A DNA stretch of 64,000 nucleotides, taken from contig LODT01000035.1 of the NCBI GenBank assembly GCA_001606155.1, positions 548,658-612,657 on the forward strand. Direction: 5' to 3'. This DNA comes from Tieghemostelium lacteum (lineage: Eukaryota > Evosea > Eumycetozoa > Dictyosteliales > Raperosteliaceae). The notes under the pieces were generated by a model, which searched no databases, was not told where the DNA came from, and saw only the letters and a program-made list of their open reading frames with translations. The translations under genes were made by a program, and so were the position numbers. Positions 1-59,346 of this stretch are shown here, piece by piece; the first letter of the stretch is position 1, and the number at the start of each line of letters is the position of its first letter.

Positions 1-529
1 GCAGTCAATGGTAATTGCTAGAATGAAATTTTAATTTTTTATCCCTATAATGTCTCTACCTATCCAACAACTAATTATATTCCAATCTAATAGATTTTTA
101 AAATGGAGTATTATTCTCTCTCTCTGTTGTATATCAAATAAAAAAAAAAAAAATATTGAAAATTTCTGTATGATTTTATTGGGTTGTTGATGATGTATAT
201 TGTTTTATCTTTAACTTTTTTGAATAACTAATAAATTTTGTTATAACAAAGATTGCTAGAGGGAGGGATACAACACACACAATTTATGTAAAAACACACT
301 AACTCAAAAAAAAATTTTATTATCAACAATAAAAAATAGAATACACCAACAAGGGTTTATATTAAAATAATATAAAAATGTTAGACTTCTTTTTGTCATT
401 CCTAAAATGTGTAAAATAGAATTTCAAATTTTTTTTTTTTCTAAAATTGGTTCACAACGAACATCACAAAATATTTTGAAAATGTCTAACTTATGTTAAG
501 GTTAAGAGTTGACTCTACTATTTTTTTTT
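1..529. other. A/T-rich intergenic DNA, no gene seen
   Basis: The stretch has long A and T runs. The only open frame of note is 45 codons (50-187, plus strand) with no recognisable motif and skewed composition. I see no tRNA or other RNA gene. Its right end is the 3' flank of the leftward gene ending at 530. Confidence 0.5.
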
Positions 530-1063
530 TTATTCTACATCTTCTATATCAAAAGATAATTTACTTGCTGTAGTGGGTTTTTTTTTAGATTTCAATTGAT
601 CTTTGGGAGATTGTTGAAATGATTTTTTAATGTCATGAGTGGTTTTTTGTAGAGATTTAGAACTCACTCTTTTTATAGATGCAGATGGTGTGGAAGATGA
701 GGTTGTTACATTATTATGAGGATTTTTAAATAGAATTTTTCTTTCAATGCCTTTAGCTTGCGCTTCTTGTTCCAAAATCAAATCCTCATGAATTCTCTTT
801 TCCTTCTCTTTATTAAATTCCTCCTGTACCTGTTGTTCCTTCTCTTTTTCTTTCAATAAGAGGTCATTTTCCTCTTTTAAAGCTCTTTCAACAGCATCTT
901 TGTGCAATTGATCCTCTTGATCATCTTGATCATCTTTTTCAAGATACTCTTGTTTGAATTTATCATCAATCTTTACTTCATGTTGTTTGAGTGTTTGTAA
1001 AAACTTTGGTACTACTTTTTGAAACTCTAATGATGATCCACCTAAACCTTTTCTCTTTGACAT
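530..1063 (-). CDS. DUF4604 (KIAA1143-like) nuclear protein
   Basis: A single-exon gene of 177 residues. The start MSKRKGLGG, the stretch ending in PKFLQTLKQ, and the extreme C-terminus KLSFDIEDVE match the layout of the human KIAA1143/DUF4604 family, whose members begin MSKRN and end LLSFDNEDE. The middle (residues about 45-105) is a strongly charged E/K/D coiled-coil-like helix. The part after residue 110 is Ser/Thr/Lys-rich and probably disordered. The function of the family is not established; the basic/acidic composition is consistent with a nuclear protein. The next gene upstream on the same strand starts about 1.3 kb away, so this is a separate transcription unit. Identification rests on terminal motifs recalled from the family, not on a search. 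Confidence 0.7.
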   Translation of the reverse strand: MSKRKGLGGSSLEFQKVVPKFLQTLKQHEVKIDDKFKQEYLEKDDQDDQEDQLHKDAVERALKEENDLLLKEKEKEQQVQEEFNKEKEKRIHEDLILEQEAQAKGIERKILFKNPHNNVTTSSSTPSASIKRVSSKSLQKTTHDIKKSFQQSPKDQLKSKKKPTTASKLSFDIEDVE

Positions 1064-1257
1064 TTAGTCAACTACACTTTCATTGAAAAAAACTGTTAAG
1101 AAAATTAAAATTACAAAAAAATTTACTTGAATCACAATTCTACAATGGAATTTAAAATTAAAGTAAAGTGTTATTTGAATCTTATTTTATTATTAGAAAC
1201 TAACAAAATTAAAAATAAAAAAAAATGAAACGTTTATTTTTAAGAAATTCCATTCAT

Positions 1258-2381
1258 TTAATAGATTCTTGATGAATATCCAAAAACACTTTTTAATCTC
1301 TCCAAGATATTTCTTCTCCAACCCTCTTCAGTCTTTTCAAATTCGTCAACTGGAATACCAGTTTGAACTATTTCAATTTTTGTAGCTGGTTTTGATTCGA
1401 CTTTAAAGGTAATGGTTACCTCCGATTCAACATTTTGAGGCCATGAATTTAATCTCCATTTTTGAACCAATTTTGAACCTGGTACTAATTGAACATTGGT
1501 TCCTCTAATCATACCGCCATACAATGAGAATTTACCACCTTCCTTATTTTCAAATTCAACCTTATCTTGAGTGTATGCAGCAATTTTGGCTGGATTTGTA
1601 AATACATCGTAACTATCTAATGGACTAGCTTGAAATTCTTCAATAATTGTAAGTGTTTTGGTTTTTGATACTACTTTTGGAGTTGTTGTGGTTGAGGTTG
1701 GTGTAGATGTAGTAGTAGTAGTAGTTGGTGTTACAGGTTGTGGTGGTGTAGAAGTAGTGGTATCAGAAGAGGTAGTTGGAGAGTTGGTTGCTGGTTTTAA
1801 GGTAAATTCTTTTTTCAATCTTTGAACAAATTCAATAGCTTTTTTCTGAACAAATTCAATAGATTGTGATCTTGGTGAACTACTGAGTTTGTTGATAAAT
1901 GATTTGTTGTCATCATCTTCTTTAGTAGTGACACTGTATGTAACTTTTGGTTTCTCTTCTCCATTTTCATCGGAAATATATGGAATTGAGAATTCACCTT
2001 GAACTTTAATTTTATTATCACCTTTGGTCTCTGCAATCCAATTTGCTTTGACATTGATTTCGTAGAGGAAGATTGTCTTTCCTTTTCTGTTATTTACATT
2101 ACATTCACCTTCAACAGTAGGAACTGATGTGATTTTAAATGTAAATTCATCTGTATCCAATACTGTTTGTGTTAAAAGTTCTGTAATCACTGTTTTACTC
2201 CATGCTATAGCAATTTAAAAAACATTAGTATTAGTATCTCTCTCTTAATAATATATAACTACTAAAGATATGAATACCAACGAAGTCTATCAGATTGAAC
2301 CCAATGCCAATTGTTGACATTTTTTCCATCTGCTCTGTTTTCTACAATCCAACGTGGGTCAGCTTCGTATGCATTTGCCAT
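1258..2381 (-). CDS. ahsa: Aha1-type activator of Hsp90 ATPase (two exons)
   Basis: This is the co-chaperone that binds the Hsp90 middle domain and stimulates its ATPase in the cytosol. Exon 1 (2282-2381) begins MANAYEADPRWIVENRADG and includes NVNNWHW, the Aha1 N-terminal signature. Exon 2 (1258-2204) continues in frame as LPWSKTVITELL. I place the intron at 2205-2281 because only that donor/acceptor pair restores the conserved LPWS. Residues about 5-165 are the Aha1 N domain. A Thr/Pro/Ser linker follows (about 170-210). The last 130 residues are the AHSA1/START-like domain, starting near LTIIEEFQASPLDSYDVFT and including the conserved GGKFSLYGG. Length (348 residues) is normal for the family. 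Confidence 0.9.
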
Positions 2382-2680
2382 TTTTCTTTAAAGAAATTGT
2401 TAAAACTAGACTTGTAATTACAGAATGAAAAAAAATATAAAGGAAAAAAAAAAAACTTACTTATAATATTTTCATTGGAAATTCATTTAAATTTCGTTAA
2501 AATATTAAAATTTTGAATCATTTTATCATTTGATCATCAATTTGAACACTTACATTAATAATTTTTTACAATATAAATATTTAATTAAGATGAGTATTAC
2601 CTAAAATGGAGATTAAAGATTTTAAAAAATAAAACTTTATAAAAAAAAAAAGAAAGAATTTTATAGAATTTGAATTTAAA

Positions 2681-3138
2681 ATGTGGATACCTATAATTAT
2701 TCCGATAGGTGTTACAGGGAAGAATAAGTTGATGGACAATGAAGTTAGAGTAGTAAGTATTGTATAAGATTAAAAAATAATAAAAATCTAATTTAAAAAT
2801 AGTGTGTAAATTGTCATAATAGTGGAGTACAATTATTACAGAACAATTCATATTTTGAATTATTTTTAGTACCTTTATTTAAAGTTAAAAGTGGAACACC
2901 ATTTGTACATTGTCCAACATGTGGATGTACAGTACCCTATAATAACGAATTACCAGAGAAACCAAAGAAAAAAAAGAAGAAATGGTTTGGAAGAAAGAGT
3001 AAACATCCAGAAGAGACTGAAGCATCTAAAGAAGTATACTATGACCATTTCCCTCAAGATGCTAAATTCCAAGAATACCAAAACAATCCGCAGGTCTATG
3101 GTACTAATGACCAAGATAATTTAAATATATCAAAATAA
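2681..3138 (+). CDS. Small CPTCGC-motif protein (two exons), unknown
   Basis: Two exons are proposed. Exon 1 starts at the ATG at 2681 and reads MWIPIIIPIGVTGKNKLMDNE, then VRVV, up to a donor at about 2755. Exon 2 starts after the TTTTTAG at about 2869 and reads PLFKVKSGTPFVHCPTCGC, then a basic KPKKKKKKWFGRKSK stretch and an acidic/aromatic tail ending LNISK. The phase works only if the donor is GTATTG rather than the GTAAGT three bases earlier, so the junction is tentative. The single CPTCGC motif could be half a zinc ribbon or a lipid-modified Cys cluster. I do not recognise the family. The ATG at 2681 has no upstream in-frame coding support, so a further 5' exon is possible. Confidence 0.55.
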
Positions 3139-3191
3139 TAAACCATTTTAAAATTATTTATATGTACATTTACATTCATTGTGTATATTAT

Positions 3192-4403
3192 TTATTTAAC
3201 ATTGAAATAGGAGCCATCCATTATATCCAAACTATTTACAGTGTCATTATGTAAAATTTGAATACCTTTATAATAAATATTCTTTAAGTAACCAATTCCA
3301 AAACATTTTAGTTGTTGTAAAATTGGGTTGATTCTATCAACTTTAATAGCTGATATTCTTCCATTATCATTGATTTTAATAGTTATTTCTGTATTTAAGA
3401 TGGGTGGTTCAGGAATGAGTTCTTGTTGGGGTTTTTGATGTGGAGTTGCATCTTTGGAATCGGAAACTACTCGGTCTTGTAGTTCTTGAACTATTTGTTT
3501 TTGTATTGTTGGGTTTGGAATTGGTGGTGTTGAACCTCTATTTACATTGCTATTAGATTGAAGATAATTCAGTTCCCATATAATAGTACTTCCAAATACT
3601 TGGAAATAGTGTAAATAGATACGCATTGTATTTTGGTATCTAGTTCTTCTAGATTCCAATGACTCGAACTCTAAATTTGGATTTGTGTGTAGTGTGTACC
3701 CAATGAGAGAAGATAACTCTTGATATCGTTTTGTATCCAGAATATGTTGATGCCATATCTCATCAATCAATGGAGGTGGCGTTAGTTTATTCCCATCTAT
3801 GTCTTTTGTCAGAACTTTCAATGTCAGAAATCTATTATACTCTTTAATTAACTGAATACCAAATTGACCTTTATATATAGATGATGAACTCTTTCGCAGA
3901 AGTGTATCGAGAATTGGAGTATAATTGAAATTAGTCAACAATTTCATTTCAATCATTCCACATGAGTCGTCTTGGTTCAAAATTATCTTCTTTGAGGCAG
4001 CAGCTTTGGTCACTATTGCAAAAGTATCTCTAAAATCGTCCAAAGTGTGATTTTGAATTTTAATTTGGTGTTCTAGTAATTTAATTTTTTTCATTGCCTC
4101 TGATGAAATACGGTGACTTGATGTGACAAGTTCACGAGATGTTTGTATTTCATTTTTCAAAGTCAATATAGTTTTGTCTTTTTCCTCTTCTGACATTATT
4201 ATATTTTCAATAGGTGAACTTATAGGCGGAGATGTATCAGAGTCTGATTCATCCAATAACATTTTCTTTCTAGCTGGTTCCTCTACAGCCTGTTGATGCT
4301 GAGCATCTAAAATTATAATTTTTGAATCTTCAAATGATCTTTTATTATTCTTGTAGTTTCTAATTTCCATTTCATTCTGGTATAGGAATGTGGGGTTTTC
4401 CAT
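3192..4403 (-). CDS. Coiled-coil protein with GRDP-like motif and ubiquitin-like C-terminus
   Basis: A single-exon gene of 403 residues. Residues about 70-120 form a coiled coil, preceded by a short acidic, serine-rich stretch. The central part carries PPLIDEIWHQHILDTKRY, which resembles the DEIWHxHxLxTxxY motif of DUF1399 (glycine-rich domain proteins, GRDP). The last 70 residues (from ITIKINDNGRISAIKV to LDIMDGSYFNVK) have the layout of a ubiquitin/SUMO-like Rad60-SLD fold: a beta hairpin, a helix-like segment, then a YYKG..L..DTVNSLDIMDG stretch comparable to FDGxxLxxxDTPxxLxMEDGD. There is no terminal diglycine, so it would act as a built-in domain rather than a conjugated modifier. It is divergent from the rightward gene at 4610, with about 200 bp between them. 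The exact role is unknown. Confidence 0.75.
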   Translation of the reverse strand: MENPTFLYQNEMEIRNYKNNKRSFEDSKIIILDAQHQQAVEEPARKKMLLDESDSDTSPPISSPIENIIMSEEEKDKTILTLKNEIQTSRELVTSSHRISSEAMKKIKLLEHQIKIQNHTLDDFRDTFAIVTKAAASKKIILNQDDSCGMIEMKLLTNFNYTPILDTLLRKSSSSIYKGQFGIQLIKEYNRFLTLKVLTKDIDGNKLTPPPLIDEIWHQHILDTKRYQELSSLIGYTLHTNPNLEFESLESRRTRYQNTMRIYLHYFQVFGSTIIWELNYLQSNSNVNRGSTPPIPNPTIQKQIVQELQDRVVSDSKDATPHQKPQQELIPEPPILNTEITIKINDNGRISAIKVDRINPILQQLKCFGIGYLKNIYYKGIQILHNDTVNSLDIMDGSYFNVK

Positions 4404-4609
4404 ATTATTTGTTTTTCAAATATTATATAACTCGTTGTATACAATAAGTATTTTTACTCTAAATCTAAGTTTACTACAAAACTAGAGTTTTTTTTTTTTA
4501 ATTTAATTAGTTTTCATTATTTTTCTATAACAGTTAGAGATTACTGCAAAAAATTGTGAAAACTGCATATTTTTAAGTTTTTTAAAATTGGGTATAACGA
4601 CACAAACGA

Positions 4610-5902
4610 ATGTTTCGTCAAGTGAATAAGTTAGCAACTTTGAATAGATTGCCAACATGTTCTCAAAATTTATATTTTTATAGAAACTATTCTACAGGTT
4701 GTGGAAAAGTGTCAGGTATTTTTAACTTTGAAGAAAAATCAGTTAGTCCTTCATCCACTCTACCCGATCTTAATATCAATAACATCAACATCAACAACAG
4801 TAACAGCCTCAATAACACAATCAATGATAATAAAAAAAATATATTGTCTTTATCAAAAGATGATCTGATAAAAGAATGTCAAGAACTACATATGACCCCA
4901 TTTAATGCAAATCAGATATGGAATTGGGTTTACAATAAGAATAAGATGAGTATTGACTCTTTTAGTAATATCTCATTGGAAAAACGAAATGCACTCAAAG
5001 AGAAATTTTATATTGATTTTGGAACTATTAGTAAAGACAGTCTTTCAGTGGACGGAACTAGAAAGTTTCTTTTGGAATTTAAAGGTGGTGATAAGGTAGA
5101 ATGTGTATTTATTCCAGAGGCTAATAGAGGAACCTTGTGTGTAAGTTCACAAGTTGGATGCACATTTTCATGTTCATTCTGTCACACTGGTACACAAAAA
5201 CTAGTTAGAAATCTGACATCGGATGAAATTGTTGCACAAGTGCTGGCAACTAGAATGATACTTGGTGATACTCAACCTAATAAAAAGAGATTGTTGACGC
5301 ATATTGTGTTTATGGGTCAAGGTGAACCATTGTACAATTATAGAAATGTTAGTAAAGCCATTCAAAAACTAACGGATGGAAATGGAATAAGTTTAGGAAA
5401 ATCAAAAATTACATTGTCAACTAGTGGTGTGGTACCTTTGATTGACAAACTATCAAAAGACCATCCAGGTGTTGGACTTGCAATTTCATTACACGCTTCA
5501 AATGACAAGACTCGTGATGAACTAGTACCTTGTAATAAACAATGGAATATAGAAGAATTGATGAATAGTTGCATTCAATATTCAAAAACCAATAGAGATC
5601 GAATTACAATTGAATATGTAATGTTAAAAGATGTAAATGATTCCATAGAAGATGCTTACAAATTAGCACAATTAATTAAACCATTCCCATCATTTGTCAA
5701 TCTAATACCCTTTAATCAATGGCCTGGAACCAAATATGTTTGTTCAAGTAATAACGCAATTCATAGATTTTCAGATGTATTACAAAAACAAGGTATCAAA
5801 GTAACTATTCGTCAACCTAGGGGAAGAGATATTCTAGCTGCATGTGGAACTCTTAAAAGTGATTCAGTAAAGAAACCAAAAACCGTACCACCTCCACTGT
5901 AA
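4610..5902 (+). CDS. RlmN/Cfr-family radical SAM RNA methyltransferase
   Basis: A 430-residue radical-SAM enzyme of the RlmN/Cfr family, which methylates C2 (RlmN) or C8 (Cfr) of an adenine in rRNA, and tRNA in the bacterial RlmN case. The 4Fe-4S cluster motif CxxxCxxC is at Cys184, Cys188 and Cys191 (CTFSCSFC). Cys412 in DILAACGTL sits where the methyl-carrying Cys lies, and Cys177 is a candidate resolving Cys. GQGEPLYNY and LSTSGVVPLI are the usual SAM-contact motifs. The first 100 residues are an extension: a basic, Arg-containing start (MFRQVNKLATLNR), then an Asn/Ser-rich linker. This suggests mitochondrial import and action on mitochondrial rRNA; that is inference. RlmN versus Cfr specificity cannot be told by eye, though the whole sequence looks RlmN-like. 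Confidence 0.9.
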   Translation: MFRQVNKLATLNRLPTCSQNLYFYRNYSTGCGKVSGIFNFEEKSVSPSSTLPDLNINNININNSNSLNNTINDNKKNILSLSKDDLIKECQELHMTPFNANQIWNWVYNKNKMSIDSFSNISLEKRNALKEKFYIDFGTISKDSLSVDGTRKFLLEFKGGDKVECVFIPEANRGTLCVSSQVGCTFSCSFCHTGTQKLVRNLTSDEIVAQVLATRMILGDTQPNKKRLLTHIVFMGQGEPLYNYRNVSKAIQKLTDGNGISLGKSKITLSTSGVVPLIDKLSKDHPGVGLAISLHASNDKTRDELVPCNKQWNIEELMNSCIQYSKTNRDRITIEYVMLKDVNDSIEDAYKLAQLIKPFPSFVNLIPFNQWPGTKYVCSSNNAIHRFSDVLQKQGIKVTIRQPRGRDILAACGTLKSDSVKKPKTVPPPL

Positions 5903-7231: not shown

Positions 7232-7990
7232 ATGTCAAATAATAATAATAATTATAATAATAATAATTATAATAATAATAATAATTATTATATGAATAAT
7301 AATTTAGATTCTTTTCCGACTGCACAAGATTTACGTAGAAATTATGTTCCTTCCACTTGGGACCCAGTAAATAGAACTGACACTCCTTATTGGGTTTTGG
7401 ATATAGAATCTCAGGAGGTATATCAATATGTTTCCCTAGCTGGGGGAAAAAATTTAAATCAAATCAGAATCAAAGATAGAAATGGAAACTTTACACAACC
7501 AACTGCAAAAAAAGGAAGATTTATTTTTTTCAAAAATAAGTTTTTGGGTGATAAACATCGTTTACCTGTATTAAATTTCGAAGCTGATACCACCAAGTCT
7601 CCCACCTTTAATCGTCCGCCAATTGGACTTTTAGGAAATCCTGTGCCTTATATTTCTCAACCATTCTTCAAACAAGAGCAGTTATCAGATAGAAATACCC
7701 AACAAGCAACTATCCATCAAAATCTTGATAATAATCTCATAGAAAATCAAGAAATTCCAATTGTCGATCAAGTACAACCACCCTCAATGAACAATGACCA
7801 AAATCTTGATGATAATCTCATAGAAAATCAAGAAATTCCAATTGTCGATCAAGTACAACCACCCTCAATGAACAATGACCAAAATATAATGAATATGGTT
7901 GAAAATTTATTACGTTCATTAAACATTGCGGATTATGATCATGTTAAATTAGCTCTGGAACTCCATAGATTTAGAAGAGATAAACAATAA
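7232..7990 (+). CDS. Asn-rich protein with 27-residue tandem repeat, unknown
   Basis: A 252-residue single-exon gene with a start context of AAACATG. Residues 3-26 are an Asn/Tyr tract. Residues about 28-130 form what looks like a folded region (TDTPYWVLDIESQEVYQYVS, GRFIFFKNKFLGDKHRLPVL). Next comes a 27-residue tandem duplication, NLDNNLIENQEIPIVDQ plus VQPPSMNNDQ, encoded by two almost identical 81-bp units (7721-7801 and 7802-7882) that differ visibly at one codon (N/D). The C-terminus (about 220-252) looks like an amphipathic helix (MVENLLRSLNIADYDHVKLA). The near-identity of the units points to a recent duplication. I do not recognise the family. It is flanked on both sides by copies of the same short dispersed repeat. 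Confidence 0.65.
   Translation: MSNNNNNYNNNNYNNNNNYYMNNNLDSFPTAQDLRRNYVPSTWDPVNRTDTPYWVLDIESQEVYQYVSLAGGKNLNQIRIKDRNGNFTQPTAKKGRFIFFKNKFLGDKHRLPVLNFEADTTKSPTFNRPPIGLLGNPVPYISQPFFKQEQLSDRNTQQATIHQNLDNNLIENQEIPIVDQVQPPSMNNDQNLDDNLIENQEIPIVDQVQPPSMNNDQNIMNMVENLLRSLNIADYDHVKLALELHRFRRDKQ
7721..7882 (+). repeat. 81-bp in-frame tandem duplication
   Basis: Two adjacent 81-bp units, each encoding 27 residues, lie inside the gene at 7232-7990. The visible difference is AAT versus GAT at the fourth codon. The low divergence implies recent origin by slippage or unequal exchange. Confidence 0.85.
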
Positions 7991-8403: not shown

Positions 8404-11400
8404 TTATTGAGTAAACATTCTTGGAGCTATAGACATTGACATGAGTTCTTGGAATAATAGTTTGGCGGCATATGGCATTCTGACTTGAGAAATTCTGGTT
8501 TTATTTTTACAACGACCACACTCGAATGAATTCTTTTTCAGATTGGCAACAGCAATAAGACCACACAAATCACAAACATGAACTCTGTAGGAATCTGATT
8601 GATCAAATAGACGTTCTTTCAAGAATTGAGCAGCACCATGTGAAATCATACAATTGTGAGCTACAATACCATTGGCTACAAAGTTCTCATTATTGTGAAC
8701 TTGAATATCAAACATTGGTAGGACACCAATTGGTTTAATGTCAATAACTTTGAGATAGAATACAGGTAATGCGTCACTGGAATGACAAGGAAGTGATTTC
8801 TCTCTAAAGAATTTATCAGAGCCAATAGATTCAAAGTATTTCATTGCATGTAAGTTTGGAGTGCAACTATCTTTACAATTAGGTATATCTATTGAAGTCT
8901 CCAATGAGTATTCTTCACAGCATTGATTGATATGACAATCAGTGTGTTTGTAGGCATTTTCACAGTTTCTGTAATAGGAAACTGCAGCTTCTAGACAAAG
9001 TGTCTTTATGTAACTGTAACGGAAACCAATGAGATTATGGAATTTAATAGTTTCATTTGTATCTATATTCATTGTATATTTGTCATTTAGAGTAATGGCA
9101 TTAGCCTCTATACCAAGAGTAACTAACATTTCTTTTAGATCTTTCATATCTACATTTTCAGATTGACTAAAACCAATACTTGTAAGTCTTTCATTATCAC
9201 TAGTGAGATTTGGTGCACAACCACTAGAACCAAAGAGTGCAGCAACAAATTCACGAAGGAATGGTTTTGGACAATTTCTAAGACCTTGTTGGTTTAGAGT
9301 ATTTAATGATTTTGATATATCTAATGGTATAGTGATTTGGTATTTGGAATCAGAGTATAAGGAAGTTGGACTACATTCTGGAGATACTAATTTCATATCA
9401 TCAATGATATCCTTTACATCTAATGAATGGGTACTGTAGATAGTGGAAGTACTTGATCCACCAAATGAATAACCAAGTAGACGATACTTGGCAGACTCCA
9501 ATTCAAAGTCTTTAATTGATTTAGCATCGGTTTGCAACATTTCATCTTGAATATTAATTAATGGTTGTTCAATAGATTTAACTAAACGACTTCCAATTAA
9601 ATCATTAACTTGTCTCCATTGACCATCTTGACATAAAAATGGATGATCATGAGTAGCATCAACAAATGTGCCATCTTCCAAATGAATTCTGTATGCTGGT
9701 AAATTACCTTTGCTCTTAAAAGCAACAATACTGTCACTTACAATACCTTCTTCTGATGGTTTAATACTCTGTCTGAATGAATATAAAGATCTTTGAATAA
9801 AGGAATTAATTAAAGAATCTAAACGAACTGAATAATGTTTCATTGAGATTCTAGAGTCACCTGATAAACAATCACGCTCCATCTCACCAAATCTCAGACC
9901 ACCATCTCTGGAACGACCTTCTACAGGCTGTCTAGTAAGAATTTGTACAGGACCTCTAGCTCTACTGTGAATCTTGTCATCTACCATATGCTTAAGTCTC
10001 TGATAATAAGTTGGACCTATAAAGATTTGAGCATCCATTTTACGACCGGTATGACCATTGTACATCACCTCATGACCTGTCATTTGGTAACCATTCTTGT
10101 GTAGTGCTTGTGAGATTGCTTCTACAGTGACATCAGTGAATGGAGTAGCATCACCTTCATCACCGGTACTTGCAGAGACTTTACCTAAAAGACATTCAAT
10201 CAATTGTCCAATAGTCATACGAGATGGAATAGCATGTGGATTTACAATGATATCTGGTACAACACCTTCAACTGTAAATGGAAGATCTTCTTGACGATAT
10301 GCCATACCACAAGTACCTTTCTGACCATGTCTTGATGAAAATTTATCACCAATTTGTGGTGTACGCATTGAACGTACTCTGACTTTTGTGAATTTCAAAC
10401 CCTCTCCAGAAGTAGTCAAAATGACTTGATCAACAATACCAGTCTCAGTGGAACGTAAGGCAGTTGAAGAATCTCTCTTTGTCTGTCTTCTTGATTTTGT
10501 ATTCAAATCTTCAGTGTTATCAGGTGGTAATGGAGTGGTCTTACCAATGATAATATCATCACCAGTCACACGAATTCCAGGAGCTACCAAACCATCTTCA
10601 TCAATTTTCTCGTAACTACCATGACGAAGTGATGCACATGTTGAAGGATCAGGTTTCTCAAAGATCTCCTCTTGGAATGAAGTTTGTTTTCTCTGTTCAT
10701 CTTGATAGGCACGATAGAACATGGATCTGAAAAGACCTCTATCAATAGCAGACTGATTCAAAATTACAGAATCTTCTTGATTGTAACCTGAGTAACATGC
10801 AATAGCTACACATACATTCTGTCCGGCTGGTAACTCTCTAAAATGCAAATACTCCATAGAACGTGTGATTACTAATGGTTTTTGTGGATAGAATAAAACA
10901 TGTGCCATAGTATCCATACGTAATTGATAGTTTGTAATATAAACACCCATAGCTTGTTTACCCATAGCTGCTTGATAGGTGTTACGTGGTGACTGGTTAT
11001 GGTCTGGGAATGGAATAATAGAGCAACAGATACCCAGAATCATTGATGGATGAATTTCACAATGTGTATAGGTATGTATGGTAGTATCACTTGGTGAGGA
11101 TATTAAATCTTCTGGTGTCATTGCAATGAGGACAGTTTCTTCTTCTTCGGCATCTACGTATTCAACTAGACCATTAGTTAATAAATCAGCCCAATGTGTT
11201 TCCTCGGATTGAATTGACTTTATATGTGACTTGTTGATGACTAGTTTGTTGTCATTTACAACGAATAGCGGACGACAACATCTACCTGCGTCGGTATAGA
11301 GACGTAGTTCTTTCTCTCTGATATCTCTAACCATACTGACTTCAACAGAGACATCACCAGATCTTCTAAGTTGACGAAGAGTTGATAAAAGACTCTCAGG

Positions 11401-13208
11401 TTGACGATGAATACCAACCCACATACCATTGACAAAGATCTTAGTGGCATTGAAGATGGAAGAGGGATCAGAGAGTTCTTCGAGATTCTCTGTTGTCCAT
11501 TCTTCAAGAAACTCCAAAATGGGAAGTGAAGCAGAACCTACGGAGATATATGACATCATTGCAAGATTCTTTACCAAACCACAAGCTTGACCTTCTGGAG
11601 TCTCACTTGGACATACAATACCCCAATGAGTGTTATGTAATTGACGTGGTTTTGCTAATTTACCTTCTCTTCCAATTGGAGTGTTCAAACGTCTCAAATG
11701 ACTAAGTGTAGATGCAAAAGTAAGACGATTGAGTACCTGAGCAACACCAGATTTTGCACCACCAGATTTTGAACTACCCCAATTACCAGTAGCCAATGAA
11801 TACTTGAGACCACTGGTAATAGTCTTGGTATTGACAGCAGTCAATGGATTAAAGTCACGATCCTTGTCAATACACTTTTGTAAGTACATTCTAACGTCTT
11901 TAGTGAGTTTCTTAAAGAGTTGTCTGAAAAGCATACCCAATAATGGACCTGCTAAATCCAATCTCTTATTTGCAAAATGGTCACGATCATCCAATGGACG
12001 TCTTTCTAAAGTTGCCAAAAGCAGTCTGTGAATTATATAACCGAAATAGTATGCTTTTTTAGTCTCAAAAAACTCAGCTACACTGACGTGGGGTAACATT
12101 TCTTTTTGCAAAACTTCTTTGGCGAATTTTATACGGTGTTCTCTAGTACCCATAGTTGAACCTCTTTTACCGAGGAAATCAAGTGCAACCTCTTGATTTT
12201 GAATGACGAATGACTCCTCTAGAGAAGGTCTCATGAGATCCATCATTTGACTATCGGTGAAATCATAACAAATGTGTTCGAGGATATCTTTATCAGCAAG
12301 GAAACCTAAAGCTCTAAAGACAATGACAATGGGGACATCTTGCTTAATGTATGGGATGGTAGCTTTCATACCTACTGCACCTTTATTGGTGTTAGCTAAC
12401 ATTTTTACATACATTGTCGAAGTTGGACGAGACCCTGTTTCTTGACAACTACGAATCTCAGCGACATAGGAGTACTTTGATGGTGGAGTCTTCTTAAATA
12501 CATAGACGTGATTGTTATTCATCTTCTCCTGAGCAATCAGTACTTTCTCTGAACCATTAATTATAAAATAACCACCTTGATCGTAAGAACATTCACCCAT
12601 TTGAGTGAGTTCTCTATCGGATGCACCACCTAACAGACAGAAATGAGATCTTAACATGATAGGTACTTTACCCATTGGTATTCTCGGCAGGGTTTTTTCC
12701 TCCTTTTCAATTTCCTCTTTAGTCTGTTTGTTTATAATTGTATCGGTTTTGGTGATATCAGCCAACAGTGGTGAACTATAAGTTAGATTGCTGAGACGTG
12801 CTTGATTTGGTGTAACTTGACATGGGGTACCTTCAATCTCTATAGTAGGTCTAGATAAATAAATCTGACCAAATTTGATACTAACTGTAGTTGTTGTGTT
12901 ACTGACTGCTGATTGACCTGGAATATGTTGTGTCTCTGGTCTTAATGTGATGGGTGGTGATTCATCTATAATCTCTTGCATTGTATTTTGAATAAATTCA
13001 TCAAATGAATCTAATTGTTGTCTTACCAAACCTTTCTCTTGAAAATAGGAACTGATAACTGTCCAAACATCTTCCTGAACAATCTCTTCAGTATCTCCTG
13101 TCATTTGTTTGAGATATATAAAGTAAATATAACTAGATCTATTTATATATATCTATAAAATATCTAATGTATATTACCTAAATCATAGTCCATGTGATCT
13201 GTATTCAT
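8404..13208 (-). CDS. rpb2: RNA polymerase II second-largest subunit RPB2, with intein
   Basis: This is the catalytic second subunit of RNA polymerase II. Exon 1 (13178-13208) codes [10 protein letters not shown]. After an 80-bp intron (13098-13177), exon 2 continues [19 protein letters not shown], the usual RPB2 start. Pol II identity follows from [17 protein letters not shown] and [12 protein letters not shown]. Conserved blocks in order are HFCLLGG near the protrusion, [51 protein letters not shown], and a C-terminal zinc site CDLCG..CGRCK. The precursor is 1574 residues. Removing the 406-residue intein at 8653-9870 leaves 1168, the normal length (about 1170). The mature protein depends on protein splicing at GEMERD/CMISHGA. 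It is a single-copy housekeeping gene; no pol I or pol III features were seen. Confidence 0.97.
8653..9870 (-). other. Intein in RPB2, degenerate LAGLIDADG (DOD) type
   Basis: An in-frame protein-splicing element of 406 residues. It starts at Cys1 ([10 protein letters not shown], block A) and ends GIVAHN (block G: His405-Asn406), followed by extein Cys in [10 protein letters not shown]. Block B is DATHDHPFL with Thr73 and His76. Block F is [16 protein letters not shown]. All residues needed for splicing (Cys1, TxxH, His-Asn, +1 Cys) are present. The interior has the two helices of a DOD homing endonuclease, but [12 protein letters not shown] (about 129-140) and [13 protein letters not shown] (about 206-218) carry Gly138 and Ser216 where the catalytic Asp residues belong. 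It should therefore splice but no longer home. The insertion point is one of the most conserved motifs of the subunit, typical of intein sites. Seven or more Cys in the 300-340 segment are an oddity. Confidence 0.93.
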
Positions 13209-13504: not shown

Positions 13505-14713
13505 TTAATCTTTATGTAGAAATGAACTTAAAGAATCATACATTGAATTTATAGTACTGTTATTAGGTGACTGATCCAAAAAGTCTAATCTCCAAACACC
13601 AACACCACGAATATGCTGTGATTTAGCATATTGAACTTTATAGAAGATACTAATTGGATTGTCATATTGAACTTGGTATATGGACCCACCAACTTGATAA
13701 TTAACATACGGTGTCATAGATTGATTATTCCAAAGCTCCCCACTGTTTTGGTCAGTTTGCAGAATCTGGTAGATATTAATATAGGAATAGGACATTGGGT
13801 ATTTATAGGTTGGTGTCTCACAGGTAGAGTTAAATATAGACTCTGTCTGTACACATTGACCATAGTACCCATACCATGGTAACCCCAATACCAATTGCCA
13901 TGGATTTACATGTAAAAACTGAAGATAGTACTGTAAACCATCAACTACAGCTGGAAGTGGTGAATTTGGTCCTAAAGGATTAGAATTCCAACTGCAGTCA
14001 TATGCCATTATAAACCAAAAATCTAGTTCTAAACCAACAGTTTGCACATCCAAGTTTCCAGGTGGTTCTAAATCCACATCATAAGATAACTGTATATAAG
14101 GGTTCATTTTATGTAACAATTTTGATATTCTCTGAACAAATATATTCAAAAGTTCAGTTTCATTAGAGTGTAGAGGCATTTCAAAATCTAGATTCAAACC
14201 ATCAGCATTGAATTGTTTCACTAGATAGAGATTTTGTCGTAACCATTCATTTTGTGTAACTAGATCCCATGAGCCTGGCCAATCAACCATATGATGAACT
14301 CTCACTTTATGTTGGTGTGCTAGACATATAATCTCTGGATTTGTACTGTTACTCAATGGTACTATAACAGATGTCAAGTTCTGCCAATTTACATATTGTT
14401 GATAGAAATCCATGTCATTGTCTAAAATGAATCCTACAATCTCCTCTCTAGGTGGAGTTTGTAAAACTTGACATAACGATTCATCTTGACAAGGACACGC
14501 AAAGACTTTCTTTTCAAGTTCTTTTATCAAAATGAAATCAAATAATTCCGATTCTATTATATATTTAATTTCTTCTCCGATATCAATATGTTTATTATTA
14601 TTATTGTTGTTATTATTATTAATATAAATTTGCTGATTTATTGAAATACTATTTACACTATATACAATTTGAACAACACTTATTATTATAAATAAAATGA
14701 ACAAATTATTCAT
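13505..14713 (-). CDS. ctbs: GH18 di-N-acetylchitobiase-like lysosomal/secreted hydrolase
   Basis: A 402-residue family-18 glycoside hydrolase. An N-terminal signal peptide (MNNLFILFIIISVVQIVYS) is followed by an Asn tract at about 32-40. CPCQDESLCQ at 73-82 matches the Cys-rich start of mature chitobiase. The catalytic DGxxxDxE motif is DGLNLDFE at residues 171-178, with Glu178 as the acid/base. WFIMAYDCSWN is the conserved substrate-assisting Tyr segment, and VLGLPWYGY and GVGVWRLDFLD are typical late-barrel strands. The enzyme would cleave the reducing-end GlcNAc from chitobiose cores during glycoprotein degradation in lysosomes, which suits a bacteria-eating amoeba. Several N-x-S/T sites fit passage through the ER. 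The gene is complete with no intron. Confidence 0.88.
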   Translation of the reverse strand: MNNLFILFIIISVVQIVYSVNSISINQQIYINNNNNNNNNKHIDIGEEIKYIIESELFDFILIKELEKKVFACPCQDESLCQVLQTPPREEIVGFILDNDMDFYQQYVNWQNLTSVIVPLSNSTNPEIICLAHQHKVRVHHMVDWPGSWDLVTQNEWLRQNLYLVKQFNADGLNLDFEMPLHSNETELLNIFVQRISKLLHKMNPYIQLSYDVDLEPPGNLDVQTVGLELDFWFIMAYDCSWNSNPLGPNSPLPAVVDGLQYYLQFLHVNPWQLVLGLPWYGYYGQCVQTESIFNSTCETPTYKYPMSYSYINIYQILQTDQNSGELWNNQSMTPYVNYQVGGSIYQVQYDNPISIFYKVQYAKSQHIRGVGVWRLDFLDQSPNNSTINSMYDSLSSFLHKD

Positions 14714-53318: not shown

Positions 53319-56300
53319 CTAATTCTCTAAACTATCTTCACTTGGAGTCAATTCAACATATTGACTGACAGATTCTCTGAATGCTTTATAACTGATATCC
53401 AATTGTGCGACTAACTCTGGTGACTCATTTTTAGATAGACGCTTATTGAGTGACAATGAGAATGCCAATACATTGGTGAACTCTTTAATGACTTCACTTA
53501 ACTTGGTGATATGATCGGCATTATATTTACTGAAAGAATCTTGTGAGAGGAAGGTACTACAAACTGCCAAAGGACCTGCATTAACCTGAAGTAGCAGACA
53601 TCCTTGTAAATTGATTTGAAGTGTCTTTGTATTTGGAGTTGAGGTATTGAGTTCAGCACGGAAATCCACAATCTTCTTTGACAATAGTTCAATGGAAGCC
53701 TCAATAGGAGTCAATTCTAATTCTTTTTTACTAATGATTGGAACACGTTTTTTCATGTAAGGGAAATGAGATTTGGTAGTCAAGATGACCTTTCTCTTCC
53801 ATTGTTCTCCAATATTGTCAGAGAGTTTACCAGTCTTGGAGAATGGAATCTCAAAAATGAATTTGTTGAGATTGGTGTTTTGTTCAAATGGTGATATTCT
53901 TTCACTGAGTTCCTCAGGTAACAAGTATGGATCTACAGAGACAATTTGAATATACACTTGATTAGGATCCAGAGTATTAACCTCAACTGGTTTGTTATTG
54001 GGTAGTAATTTGACTTTATCTTCACCAAATTTAGCTCCATACTGGTTCTTGAGACGTTCAGCGATATCAGCAAGACGAAGGAAATTAAGTTCCTTATAGA
54101 TAAACTCTTTTTCATTGAGTTCTGGAATGAGGTTTTTAGAATAAAATGCAACACGATAGTAATTTGAGAAAATTCTCTGACTTGCTGTGTTTTCAGAGAT
54201 GATTTGAACACAGAGGATACGTAGTTCATTGTAGCATTCAATTTGCTTCTGCCAGTCTCTTTGACGTTGGTAGGTTGGTAGTAACAATCTGTAAGTGTCT
54301 GCACAAGATTCAAAGAAACAACCGCATTTCAGTAGGTAAATAGCCTCTTTGAGTAGATTGATAAAACCAGTTTCATTGAAATCGTCTAGTTTACAAATTT
54401 CACCTTCAACATCTTCGAGTTGAGTGATATCTGGTAGAGTCAATTCAGAGACAATGTTTGGTGATACAATACTAAAGTCTACAACAATGTCCTTTGGATA
54501 ACGGTTCAAGAGTTTCAGGTATCCACTGACCAAGGCAGCTGCGATGATATTGACTTGAGCTGCTTCCTCGTAGTTTTTGTTTTCTTTGAGGAATGCTGCT
54601 AAACTCTTTAACCATGTGATTCTGAGATCTGGTGATTCAATAAAGGTATTAGCGAGGTTATAGTAGAGATCAGCTTTCATTTCAGGGTCATAACTGTACT
54701 GTTGGATCTTTTCATTGTTTTGGATGACACCAAACAAACGGTTTCTTAAATCATCCATTTGTTGACTTAGTGGTATGATTTGTTTGGGTTTGGATGGTTG
54801 TTGGACACCAACTGTGGTACCTTTAGCTGTGGAGACTGATGGTGTTGGAACAGTTGTTTTTAGCAGATTAGAATTACAATGCAATTTTACAAATTTGGTA
54901 ATTGATTCCAAAGAGGCATAGAGATATTGGAAGAAAAGAGTGTGATCTTTTTTCTTTTGTTCAGGGTCATTTAGAGTCACATTAAGGATTCTTGAGATTG
55001 CTACAGTGGATTGTAACTTCATTCTAGAGAAATTACCCATCTCTCTGAGATTGTTGTGAATGAGGATATAGACTAGAGTGGTTGCCAGTTGACGATCTGG
55101 TCCATGGCTACTGTAGGAATAGTCGAATATAACCTGTGTTAAATCAGCACAAACTGTATTGTTGAGTTTGAATAAGATGGTTTTGAATTCAGATATCATT
55201 GATGATAGAATGCAGAAACATGTTTTTACAATAACATGACTTTGTTCAAGACTAAGGATACTAATGATAGATTTGAATATCATATCTAGGAATGAATTGG
55301 ACTGGTTCTTTAAAAGTTCAACTTTGTACTCACGGATATAACTGACTAGACAGTTGAGTACAGTGAGTGATACCTCATGAGTGAGGTTCTCTAACATTGG
55401 TGGGACTAAATCAAAAGATAATGATGATTTGTTGGTTGGTAGAGATGAGGTGTTGTAGAATGATCTATAAGCAGCTGGACTGTTGCTAGTACCCATGAGA
55501 TTACTTGAACTTGTGCTACTAGTAGAGTTATTCAATTTCTCTCCATTTGGAGTACCTCCGTTTGTATTAGGTATATTTGGATTGGATCCAGAGAGTGGGG
55601 CACCTACGGTATTAGAAGATGGTTGTTGAAGGTTAGGTGGAAGACTTTGACTCATAGAGTAGGTTCTCTCTGATTTTGCCATTGACAACGCAAGGTTTTG
55701 TTCAATTTGTTCTTTGGCCTTATCAGGTGTCAATTGAGTTGGTCTACCACTTCCAGGGGTATTAGGTTTAGAGTTAATACCTTTTTTGAATCTTCTACTT
55801 GGAGAGTCATTATTAGACTGGTCAACAGATTCAGCCTTGTTATGTCCACTTCCAGGTGTACCACTACTACCATTCATAGAGGTGCTTTGAGAAATGGCAT
55901 TGGATGCTGGTAAGAGACTTAGCATTCCAAAGTGATCACTATCTTTACCATAATCAAATGTCTGAACACATTTGTTTAGTAAGTTGAAGAATATCATCTT
56001 ACGACCTGGTGTCTCTTTCTTCCACCATTCGGTTATAACAGTACCGTTAATGAGATTCTTTACAACATAGATGAAACATATCAACCAGATCTTTAGTTCA
56101 TTTCCATCGAATTTATTCACTAATTGATAGTTGTCAACTAGTGTAAGGATATAAGGGAAATAGAGTGCAGCTATTCTCTCTCTCATTGGGGCATTATTGT
56201 AGAATGCTGATGTATCAAATCTTGACATGATCTCACGAAGAGTTTGGATACAGGTAATTCTCATGGTACGTTCTTTTGCAGAGATTATAGTGGAAACCTC

Positions 56301-59300
56301 TTGAAGTAGCAAACCAACTAGGAAGTTTCTCTTGTAGAATGTCTGGTAGACTTCAGCAACTGTAGATGGGAATGGGAATGGCATTGGAATATTCAATGCA
56401 ATAAAGTTATCATTCATTGCTAAAACTCTAAAGAAACGTGATTTGAAGTCTACCAACTCCATAATGGTATTGCTTGAGTCCAGTCCAGTGACATAAGAGT
56501 GAATGAGCTTGAATACAAAACCTCTATTAAGAATATCCAAAAGATCATTAATAAAATGACCAATATAGACAATGAACAATTTGAATTTGGTCAATTGATT
56601 CTTGTAGTTTTGTTTGAGTTGGATGAGCAACTGGTCAAAGAGATACTTTAGACGGTTAAGAACCTCATCTGAGAAACGACCAGTACGATTTCTTCCGGAT
56701 TTCAAAGTATTCTTTATATCAATTTCAGAGATCATTGATTTCTTTATGATACCAAAGAGGAACCATGAATACTGAATGGACAAGTTGATAAATGAAACAT
56801 CAGCAGTCTCCAAGAAATGGTTCCATGTTTGAATTAAACTGTCATAGAGAGTCACAGTTGCACATGCATTACTGAAAATATAGGTTACATAGCTACTCAG
56901 TTGATCTTCAGGAACGTTATCGCAGAGATTTAGAATAGCTGCAAAGGCATTGTGAGCAATTTCAGTGGACAAGGAAGTTATACACTTAAATAGTACTCTA
57001 ATTACAGCTGGGAAGTATTGAGATTTTAGTTTCTTTGGTACAGAATCAATCTTTTTAATTTGTTCATTCAATAGATTATGGTCGCACTCAGTTGAATTTC
57101 TTAACATAAATGACAAAACTGGATCCTGTGGATAGATACTGGATATAACTCTAGTTCTAAAACTGAAAACTGGTTTCTTATTATCAACCCACATTTTCAA
57201 ATTAGTTGGATCCTTTGGATCTTTTGCCTCTTCTGCCAAATATTTTGGTGGAAAAACTGTTGCAACTGGTTTCTTGTATTTATTATCAACAATAATTCTA
57301 AGTAATATAAAGTTAGTTAGTAAACCTATAAATAAGAATTTAAAAATTTAAATATATATATACTTACTGATCATTTTCAAATAAACGAATTGCACAATAA
57401 CCAAGTGGTACTTCAGGTTTATCAGATTTTTTAGATTGACGACAACCCAAGTGATAAAATGTTACAAGTAGATGATGGTTTGGAGTCAAATTGGCTGGTA
57501 AATTAATTTTAATTTCATCAGTGAATTTTGGTTTACGATTATGATAGATAACTTGTGTATAGAATTTTCTGGTGAGAATTGGATTTAATGATGTTCCGTA
57601 GATATTCTTTAGACCTTGATTATTTACATTGGTATCGTCTTCGAGAAGTTTTACCTCCAAGAATATATTTCTGGCGCTGGATCCTTTATCCGATTTGAAA
57701 TTGGTCAGATTGACTGATTTTGGATAGAGATACAAGAGATTACTGTATTGGATATATGGTTCTTTTGAATCTTTACCAAATTCATCTCTGTCCACTGGTT
57801 GATAGTCAAATTGAAGAATTTCTTTTACTAATGGTACAAATGGTTGTGGTTGGCTAGTTGGTCCTTTTTTAGGTCTTAGATGATGATCTACACGACCTTC
57901 TAGAGATTCAGAATATTGGTAAATCTCTTGGCCTGTAGAAGGATTGATGGTATTGGTAGATGTTGAAACTTGTTGGAATCTAAGTGTACAATCAAATACT
58001 GAATCTTTAGTTGACTTCTTTTCTTTGGTTATAAAATTCAATAAGTCACCTTTGGATTTGACTAAACTGGTTAATTTAAATTCAGTTTCATTACCATTGC
58101 CAAAGAGGAATTGGTGGTTTTGTTGGTCGAATAATTCAACACAACCCCAGAGGAAAGTCTGTCTAAAGTGACCTAATCTCTGTACACCATCTTTTACTTC
58201 GTTTTTGAATTTCTCCAATTCTTTGGGTTTTTGTGAGGTGTTAAAATAGGCTTTGGTAGTTTCTTCAGGGTCACCTAGAATAACTTTATCGAAACAAACT
58301 ACCAAATGAATACTACTGGATCTGGTGGCAACTGAAAAGAGTGATTTTTTGAATTTAGTTGGCATCTCCAAATCTGAGGTTTTAGGTAGTAATTCTAAAC
58401 TCTTTCCAGAATCAAAGTGAAATTCCTCTGAAACAACCCCAGATTTTAAATCGGAGGCTCTGGTATCAAAGAGAAACATTCTACCAAAGAATGGCTCAAA
58501 GTGTCCAATTTGAGGTTTGAATTCCACACATTCGACTGTGAATTGAAAACCTACATATTCAGAGATGGCTTTTCCAATTTTTGCAGGTTCAATGGAGGAG
58601 AGGTCATCATCTGATGTTGGAATGGTTTTAAAGAGTGGTACTCTGTTAACTGATTTCATAAGATCCAGTGTCTTTGTATCCGGTGTTGGACCAGCACTAG
58701 TCTGAAGTAAATCCTGATTGAGATCTTTTACAGAATCTACAGCTGTTGATAGCTCACATTCCAAGTATGGTTGAGAATCTAGTTTCTTAATTGGTGTATT
58801 AGTGGTTGTTGGTAACTCAGATCTTGATATCAGAGTCCATGTTTGGTTGCATACTGCCATTGACTCTTGTATGCCTTTTGGTAGTTTCTCAACTACAATA
58901 TCCTCTGGGACACTGCTTTGACCCAGTAGATTACTCTGTCTTTTCTCTGTTTGTACATTTAAAAGATCTGGAATCAATGAAATCTTTAGTTGGTCATTGA
59001 TCACAGCCTTATTGAAAAACTGCTCTTCGTAGTCATCAAATTTATAGTCTGTTGTCATTTGTTTGTTAGTCTGTGACATTTCACCGCCAACATTGCTCTT
59101 AGTGCTGGAACTGTTAACTTGAGTTGTATTAGTGACACTCAGTCCTTGTGAATTACCATTGGTACTTGTTGTCACTGATCCAATTTGACTCTGACTGATA
59201 TTACCTGGTATAGGTGATGGTGGATTTGAATTTATTTTACTACTGTTTCCATAGGGTGATGATGAGACACTAAGTGTTGATGGAGCACTAATTACATGCC

Positions 59301-59346
59301 CACCAGTCCCACTGCTACCCATATTCTTTTTAGATTCACTACTCAT
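53319..59346 (-). CDS. DOCK/zizimin-family RhoGEF (two exons)
   Basis: Exon 1 (57368-59346) and exon 2 (53319-57297) join at an in-phase 70-bp intron to give 1985 residues. The disordered start (Ser/Asn/Gly-rich) is followed by DYEEQFFNKAVINDQLKISL, resembling the N-terminal region of DOCK-C/D proteins. The C2-like DHR-1 domain spans about 545-700 (LLYLYPKSVNLTNFKSDKGS, RNIFLEVKLLEDD, FTDEIKINLPANLTPNHHLL, VTFYHLGCR). A long helical/ARM-like middle contains a Ser/Pro/Gly-rich insert at about 1110-1290. The C-terminal DHR-2 is the GEF domain (ESCADTYRLLLPTYQRQRDW, YRVAFYSKNLIPELNEKEFI, and the final helix SLNKRLSKNESPELVAQLDI). Such proteins load Rac/Cdc42 with GTP in cell migration. The Rac-like gene at 18.4 kb is a possible but untested partner. 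Confidence 0.9.

Follow-up and report, generated by a model that had tools for sequence, protein, structure and literature searches.

A class 1 intein in the RPB2 gene of Tieghemostelium lacteum with intact splicing residues and an endonuclease that has lost both catalytic aspartates

Six intein sites have been described in RNA polymerase subunits, including RPB2-a of Chlamydomonas and RPC2 of Dictyostelium discoideum (Goodwin 2006, PMC1635734). Here, we analyze an intein in RPB2, the second-largest subunit of RNA polymerase II (Pol II), of the dictyostelid Tieghemostelium lacteum. The gene lies in a stretch of 64,000 nucleotides of contig LODT01000035.1 (assembly GCA_001606155.1, positions 548,658 to 612,657), which as a whole is called the window below.

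The RPC2 intein of D. discoideum is likewise a dictyostelid nuclear RNA polymerase intein with Cys1, a His-Asn end, and a possibly degenerate endonuclease, but it resides in another polymerase and at another site (PMC1635734), its counterpart in T. lacteum being probably an RPC2-like intein on a different contig (C33, see below). The RPB2 intein of Bodo saltans virus (PMC5871332) is similar in being a polymerase intein that is said to lack, as it seems, an active homing endonuclease and to be fixed for that reason; it differs in belonging to a virus gene. By column arithmetic, the T. lacteum insertion most likely corresponds to the published site RPB2-a: the alignment of Goodwin 2006 has a spacing of 32 columns between sites b and a, and DKIH/S and GEMERD/C are likewise 32 residues apart in the RPB2 of the fungus Mycoemilia scoparia. 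The Chlamydomonas reinhardtii intein shares Cys1, Cys+1, and, by columns, probably the site with that of T. lacteum, but it ends in Gly-Asn and groups with yeast ThrRS inteins (PMC1635734), for which reasons it could represent a separate lineage at this site. Green 2018 (PMC5784728) reports inteins of social amoebae as well as RNA polymerase inteins of Amoebozoa. The terms Dictyosteli-, Tieghemostelium, Polysphondylium, and RPB2 are absent from its main text, and the intein analyzed here may already figure in the tables of that paper. In the openly licensed papers searched, nothing pairs an intein with Tieghemostelium, an earlier mention elsewhere being possible, and among the matches listed there is none with both intein and Dictyostelium lacteum. 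The kind of element is known and the site probably so; what the present analysis adds is probably the graded dictyostelid series and the link to a pandoravirus.

The RPB2 of T. lacteum is encoded by the minus-strand open reading frame (ORF) 13104..8404 of 1566 aa, in which all of the Pfam Rpb2 domains 1-7 are matched together with the Intein_splicing profile. The joined product of the two exons is exactly identical to the deposited T. lacteum protein P0010 (1574 aa), labelled "RNA polymerase II core subunit". An earlier examination of the letters alone (the sequence-only reading) had claimed that a 406-residue intein interrupts this protein at GEMERD/CMISHGA. The claim is borne out, since the stretch 9870..8653 is open throughout and related RPB2s have inserts at the same residue. 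The translated insert matches Intein_splicing with 47.5 bits against a cut-off of 35.8, and each of 2000 mononucleotide shuffles of the stretch contains at least 15 stops (mean 30), as compared to none in the real one. Cys1, Thr73-x-x-His76, His405-Asn406, and Cys+1 are all found where they had been reported, and the HN pair at the C-terminus of the intein is common to 91 of 91 aligned inteins. Both LAGLIDADG (DOD) motifs are relics without the catalytic Asp, as had also been proposed, Gly138 and Ser216 occupying the respective positions in the intein alignment. A search of the T. lacteum assembly found no second RPB2 copy, and the remaining matches are paralogues of at most 41% identity (contig C33) and 34% (contig C42), which we read as RPC2 and RPA2. 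The coordinates of these features are collected in Table 1.

Table 1. Features of the RPB2 gene and its intein, in window positions
Feature	Position	Strand	Details and evidence
RPB2 gene (RNA polymerase II second-largest subunit)	8404..13208	-	exon 1 13208..13178, exon 2 13097..8404; Pfam, deposited product
RPB2 intron	13098..13177	-	80 nt, GT..AG, after first base of codon 11
Intein, 406 residues, GEMERD/C ... HN/CMISHG	8653..9870	-	open translation, Pfam, related RPB2s
Cys1, N-terminal splicing nucleophile	9868..9870	-	
Block B, Thr73-His74-Asp75-His76	9643..9654	-	aligned inteins: Thr 88/91, His 89/91
First LAGLIDADG motif relic, residues 131-140	9451..9480	-	Gly138 at Asp position; after it, a deletion as compared with most relatives in the alignment
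Second LAGLIDADG motif relic, residues 208-218	9217..9249	-	Ser216 at Asp position
Block F to C-terminal end, residues 385-406	8653..8718	-	Asp388 and His405-Asn406 kept; Glu395 at block F His
Cys+1 of CMISHG	8650..8652	-	

The insert combines the features of a class 1 intein, namely Cys1, TxxH, the His-Asn end, Cys+1, and a Hint fold in the predicted model, and it is an in-frame insert missing from most homologues. In a wider search for RPB2 homologues (5705 matches, 120 listed, of which 116 were new), the site is uninterrupted in 107 of the 116 newly scored rows, nine rows being unscorable and none having an intein. The predicted structure, built with 10 sequences, consists of a Hint domain and a LAGLIDADG-type fold. 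A Foldseek search with the model returns I-DmoI with a TMt of up to 0.69 and PI-PfuI with an E of 3.8e-12, the latter having a TMq of 0.34 and an rmsd of 16.4 over the whole chain.

From these data we infer, with a probability of about 0.88, that the one RPB2 gene detected contains a class 1 intein, which splices itself out, carries an endonuclease that does not cut, and is inherited vertically. The 177.5-kDa RPB2 precursor would be translated whole, after which the Hint domain would excise itself through an acyl shift at Cys1, transfer to Cys+1, and cyclisation of Asn406. The exteins would thereby be joined into an RPB2 of 131.8 kDa and the intein of 45.8 kDa set free, these computed masses being close to the values of ~130 and ~46 kDa given in the sequence-only reading. 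The LAGLIDADG endonuclease probably still folds but, owing to the loss of the two metal-binding Asp residues, should be unable to cut, and an element that cannot cut would no longer home and would be inherited vertically. The Pol II of T. lacteum, and perhaps its RNA polymerase III (Pol III), should then depend on protein splicing.

It is necessary to consider here whether 9870..8653 might be a spliceosomal intron with a frame left open by chance, in which case protein splicing would be unneeded, as exact removal from the RNA would restore RPB2 as well. We give this alternative next to no weight. The borders read GAT/TGT ... AAT/TGT, with no GT..AG, and the GC content of the insert (0.32) is to be compared with 0.38 for the exteins and 0.17 for the real intron of the gene, a figure computed with the intron border one base off. 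Under extein codon usage, the insert scores -0.889 per codon, level with the best of the four extein pieces (-0.973 to -0.889) and above five neighbouring ORFs (-1.003 to -1.074). Moreover, there are 406 open codons where the shuffles hold about 30 stops, and the encoded protein is conserved with RPB2 inteins.

A search with the insert only, among proteins of 0.55-1.75 times the query length, yields seven matches at E up to 1, the closest being an RPB2 homologue of Pandoravirus japonicus (P0003; 30% identity over 92% of the query, E 2.3e-51). The search at whole-protein length yields 132 matches, and the 120 listed are headed, after T. lacteum itself, by P0011 (47%, a dictyostelid from EukProt), Heterostelium album P0012 (46%), P0013 (37%), and M. 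scoparia P0014 (30%). These are followed by RPB2s mostly from unlabelled metagenomes and, lower down, by inteins of DNA polymerase B, ribonucleotide reductase, and helicases; only one RPB2 row among the 120 carries a viral label (P0057). The GEMERD/C site is interrupted in 88 of 245 proteins, including the window protein P0001 and its deposited twin P0010. In 46 of the 245 the site pattern could not be read and six comprise the C-extein only; P0003, P0005, P0007, and P0033 were added back, and P0010 was dropped as the same protein as P0001, the resulting intein alignment having 91 rows. The shortest insert read at the site is that of a metagenome RPB2, P0096, with 332 aa and most of the endonuclease part gone.

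The extein identity to T. lacteum has a median of 51% (range 42-96) in the 83 interrupted rows other than dictyostelids, a set that includes Mycoemilia (70%) and an unexplained top value of 95.7%. As the corresponding identity is 73-78% for the RPB2s of Selaginella, Balamuthia, and a Physarum-like organism, this suggests that most of the non-dictyostelid carriers have virus-like hosts. The intein family thus extends to giant-virus-like RPB2s, which the sequence-only reading had missed. The P. japonicus intein has the same C-terminal border as that of T. lacteum, while its N-terminal border is outside the deposited protein; it differs in its viral host gene, in keeping both catalytic Asp residues and the block F His, and in its longer endonuclease part. 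The deposited P0003 begins inside the intein, and its gene model is probably cut. Two loci (L011 and L012) were picked up when viral contigs were scanned with the pandoravirus protein, but their similarity is confined to 29 and 33 residues of the C-terminal intein end, there is no RPB2 match to P0001, and they were not used.

The loss of the catalytic residues in T. lacteum is robust to the alignment procedure. The sequence-only reading had named acidic residues at the active site after proper alignment as evidence that would overturn it, and none is found at either catalytic column with five aligner settings, four of which give Gly/Ser and one a gap and Ser. There is no Asp or Glu in residues 126-150 or 208-224, the nearest ones being Asp151 for the former and Glu207 and Asp225 for the latter. 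An endonuclease still active through other acidic residues is thus extremely improbable, even though the LAGLIDADG fold is retained in the model and 45 of the 141 endonuclease columns conserved among Asp/Asp inteins are kept.

Asp is present at both catalytic columns in 84 of the 86 inteins at this site other than those of T. lacteum, P0011, H. album, P0013, and Mycoemilia. The P0011 and H. album inteins share with T. lacteum the insertion residue, the splicing residues, 46-47% full-length identity, and Gln or Glu at block F. Unlike T. lacteum, which has neither Asp, P0011 keeps both and H. album the second only (Ser/Asp). The pair is Gly/Asn in P0013, Gln/Met in Mycoemilia, and Asp/Asp in P. 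japonicus; the first residue of P0013 and the second of Mycoemilia each shift under one aligner setting but are never acidic. T. lacteum and P0013 also have in common the deletion after the first motif. Of the 141 columns mentioned above, 58 are kept in P0011, 54 in H. album, 40 in P0013, and 86 in P. japonicus. The N- and C-terminal splicing columns kept (of 22 and 24, respectively) are 12 and 17 in T. lacteum, 15 and 16 in P0011, 13 and 16 in both H. album and P0013, and 12 and 21 in P. japonicus. Between T. lacteum and P0011, the identity is 62% in the N-terminal splicing part, 45% in the endonuclease, and 82% in the C-terminal splicing part. P0013 has accumulated more changes than P0011 both in the endonuclease (60 vs 26, with H. 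album as outgroup) and in the N-terminal splicing part (31 vs 11). The Pfam profile LAGLIDADG_3 has no match over the T. lacteum genome, a weak negative given that the Asp/Asp relative P0011 fails the profile likewise. The endonuclease part of P0013 contains Asn-rich runs, as does the D. discoideum RPC2 intein (PMC1635734).

The intein belongs to a one-site family of RPB2 inteins with members among several dictyostelids, a single kickxellalean fungus, and RPB2s of giant-virus-like type, and with endonucleases at differing stages of decay. According to the theory of the homing cycle, a given element should be encountered in empty, active, and dead form at the same time. Within a single amoebal clade, the same residue of an essential gene is represented here by empty sites, a copy with both Asp residues, a copy with one, and two with none, which makes it possible to follow decay alongside precise loss. 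Outside the clade, the closest relatives tie a giant virus, a fungus, and amoebae to a single site.

The nine dictyostelid RPB2s retrieved form one host clade (100/100), and it is from their place in this clade that P0011, P0013, and P0135 are called dictyostelid. The survey of dictyostelid RPB2s that the sequence-only reading had called for shows the site filled in four of the nine (T. lacteum, P0011, P0013, and H. album) and empty in D. citrinum, D. purpureum, Cavenderia fasciculata, Acytostelium subglobosum, and P0135. Parsimony needs at least three changes at this site, as opposed to one at the second RPB2 site NTYQ/SAMGKQ, and the history with the fewest changes involves a precise loss in Dictyostelium. 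This loss hangs on a host branch with a support of 82/85, and a grouping of the three carriers other than H. album without Dictyostelium is not quite rejected by the approximately unbiased (AU) test (p 0.07). Losses of the intein in dictyostelids look likely, albeit unproven, and the statement that the element persists only because precise loss is hard therefore exceeds the evidence.

On the host tree, a grouping of H. album with the remaining three carriers is rejected (AU p 1e-53), which means that one gain followed by vertical descent needs losses elsewhere, or that transfer occurred. In the intein tree, for which 25 of the 91 rows were taken, the four dictyostelid inteins form a clade (98/86) with the virus outside, and together with Mycoemilia and P. 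japonicus they constitute a six-row group (100/100) apart from the 19 other rows. Long branches lead to Mycoemilia, P0013, and P0096, and the letter make-up is unusual in P. japonicus, P0013, P0053, and Mycoemilia; the position of Mycoemilia is unsure because of its very long branch. Multiple entries into the dictyostelids, for example from giant viruses or between amoebae, would be compatible with a splicing intein that has lost its endonuclease activity. Such an origin would account for the patchy distribution with its three or more changes, the separate position of H. album, the difference between the intein and host trees, and the closeness of the P. japonicus intein (30% over 92% of the query, E 2e-51). 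We nevertheless regard it as rather unlikely, as the dictyostelid inteins are one clade without the virus, their host-like order is not rejected (p 0.26), and a single entry followed by losses fits equally well.

Several observations weigh against the reading of a self-splicing, non-cutting, and vertically inherited intein. The T. lacteum endonuclease is not clearly faster-evolving than that of P0011: relative-rate tests with three outgroups give 25 vs 26, 38 vs 24, and 25 vs 18 changes (chi-square 0.02, 3.16, and 1.14), none of them significant. The four dictyostelid inteins have 396-415 aa and are thus some 100 residues shorter than the virus-like ones (mostly 503-554), and the P0011 endonuclease may be dead too, its Asp pair notwithstanding, because of this shortness and because of the only 58 endonuclease columns kept. 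In a six-frame search of the genome, the match of this insert to Intein_splicing is broken into two parts, of 28.3 and 19.1 bits, both below the cut-off. In the intein tree, P0013 branches off outside the group of T. lacteum, P0011, and H. album (85/97), which differs from the host tree, the host-like order not being rejected, as stated above. Finally, the block F His is replaced by Glu395, which had previously gone unremarked. Glu is also found in P0011 and P0013 and Gln in H. album, while 79 of the 86 other aligned inteins have His and the other seven have Asn (six) or Glu (one). This His is usual but not obligatory in class 1 inteins.

The replacement of the block F His would fit an insert that no longer splices and remains in the mature RPB2 as an extra domain. 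This scenario is judged to be highly improbable, as all four dictyostelid copies retain Cys1, TxxH, HN, and Cys+1, despite an identity to T. lacteum of just 37-47%. In addition, the polymerase intein sites are located on the cleft or at the RPB1/RPB2 interface (PMC1635734), which argues against a retained domain.

An RPC2-like gene of T. lacteum (contig C33:493300-498600, ORF 318..4637, minus strand) contains a further intein of 399 aa at PSDTPEGEA/C...THN/CGLV, which had also been overlooked. It is probably located at the site of the D. discoideum RPC2 intein, because it lies 10 residues from the WGLV/C site, matching columns 843 and 853 of Goodwin 2006 (PMC1635734). Pol III may accordingly depend on protein splicing too. 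The presence of inteins in both RPB2 and the RPC2-like gene, along with the block F change common to all four dictyostelid alleles, could be taken to indicate that the retained intein has been domesticated, with regulated splicing setting the supply of RPB2. In an extended version of this idea, conditional splicing of RPB2 and the RPC2-like subunit would gate the assembly of Pol II and Pol III in dictyostelids, the block F change tuning the cyclisation of Asn. The former is very unlikely, given that the site is empty in five of the nine dictyostelid RPB2s retrieved and these relatives manage without the intein, and we hold the latter to be just as doubtful.

The second RPB2 site, NTYQ/SAMGKQ, is occupied by inteins of 355-423 aa in H. 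album (P0012), in P0135, and in C. fasciculata and A. subglobosum (between them P0133 and P0134). In BLASTP comparisons, these match the RPC2-like intein of T. lacteum with E values of 5e-23 to 3e-18 (22-35% identity), the match between the latter and the T. lacteum RPB2 intein being weaker (E 0.005). Movement of inteins between polymerase genes is thus possible. The RPB2 of M. scoparia carries three inteins, of 446, 325, and 440 aa.

Elsewhere in the window, a glycosyl hydrolase family 18 gene (13505-14713) adjoins the 5' end of RPB2. At 53319-59346, DHR-2 and DOCK-C2 domains are found on two neighbouring minus-strand ORFs, which probably represent one intron-split DOCK gene. Within ORF 7232..7990, two near-identical copies of ~81 bases, spotted by eye, are arranged head to tail at 7719-7880.
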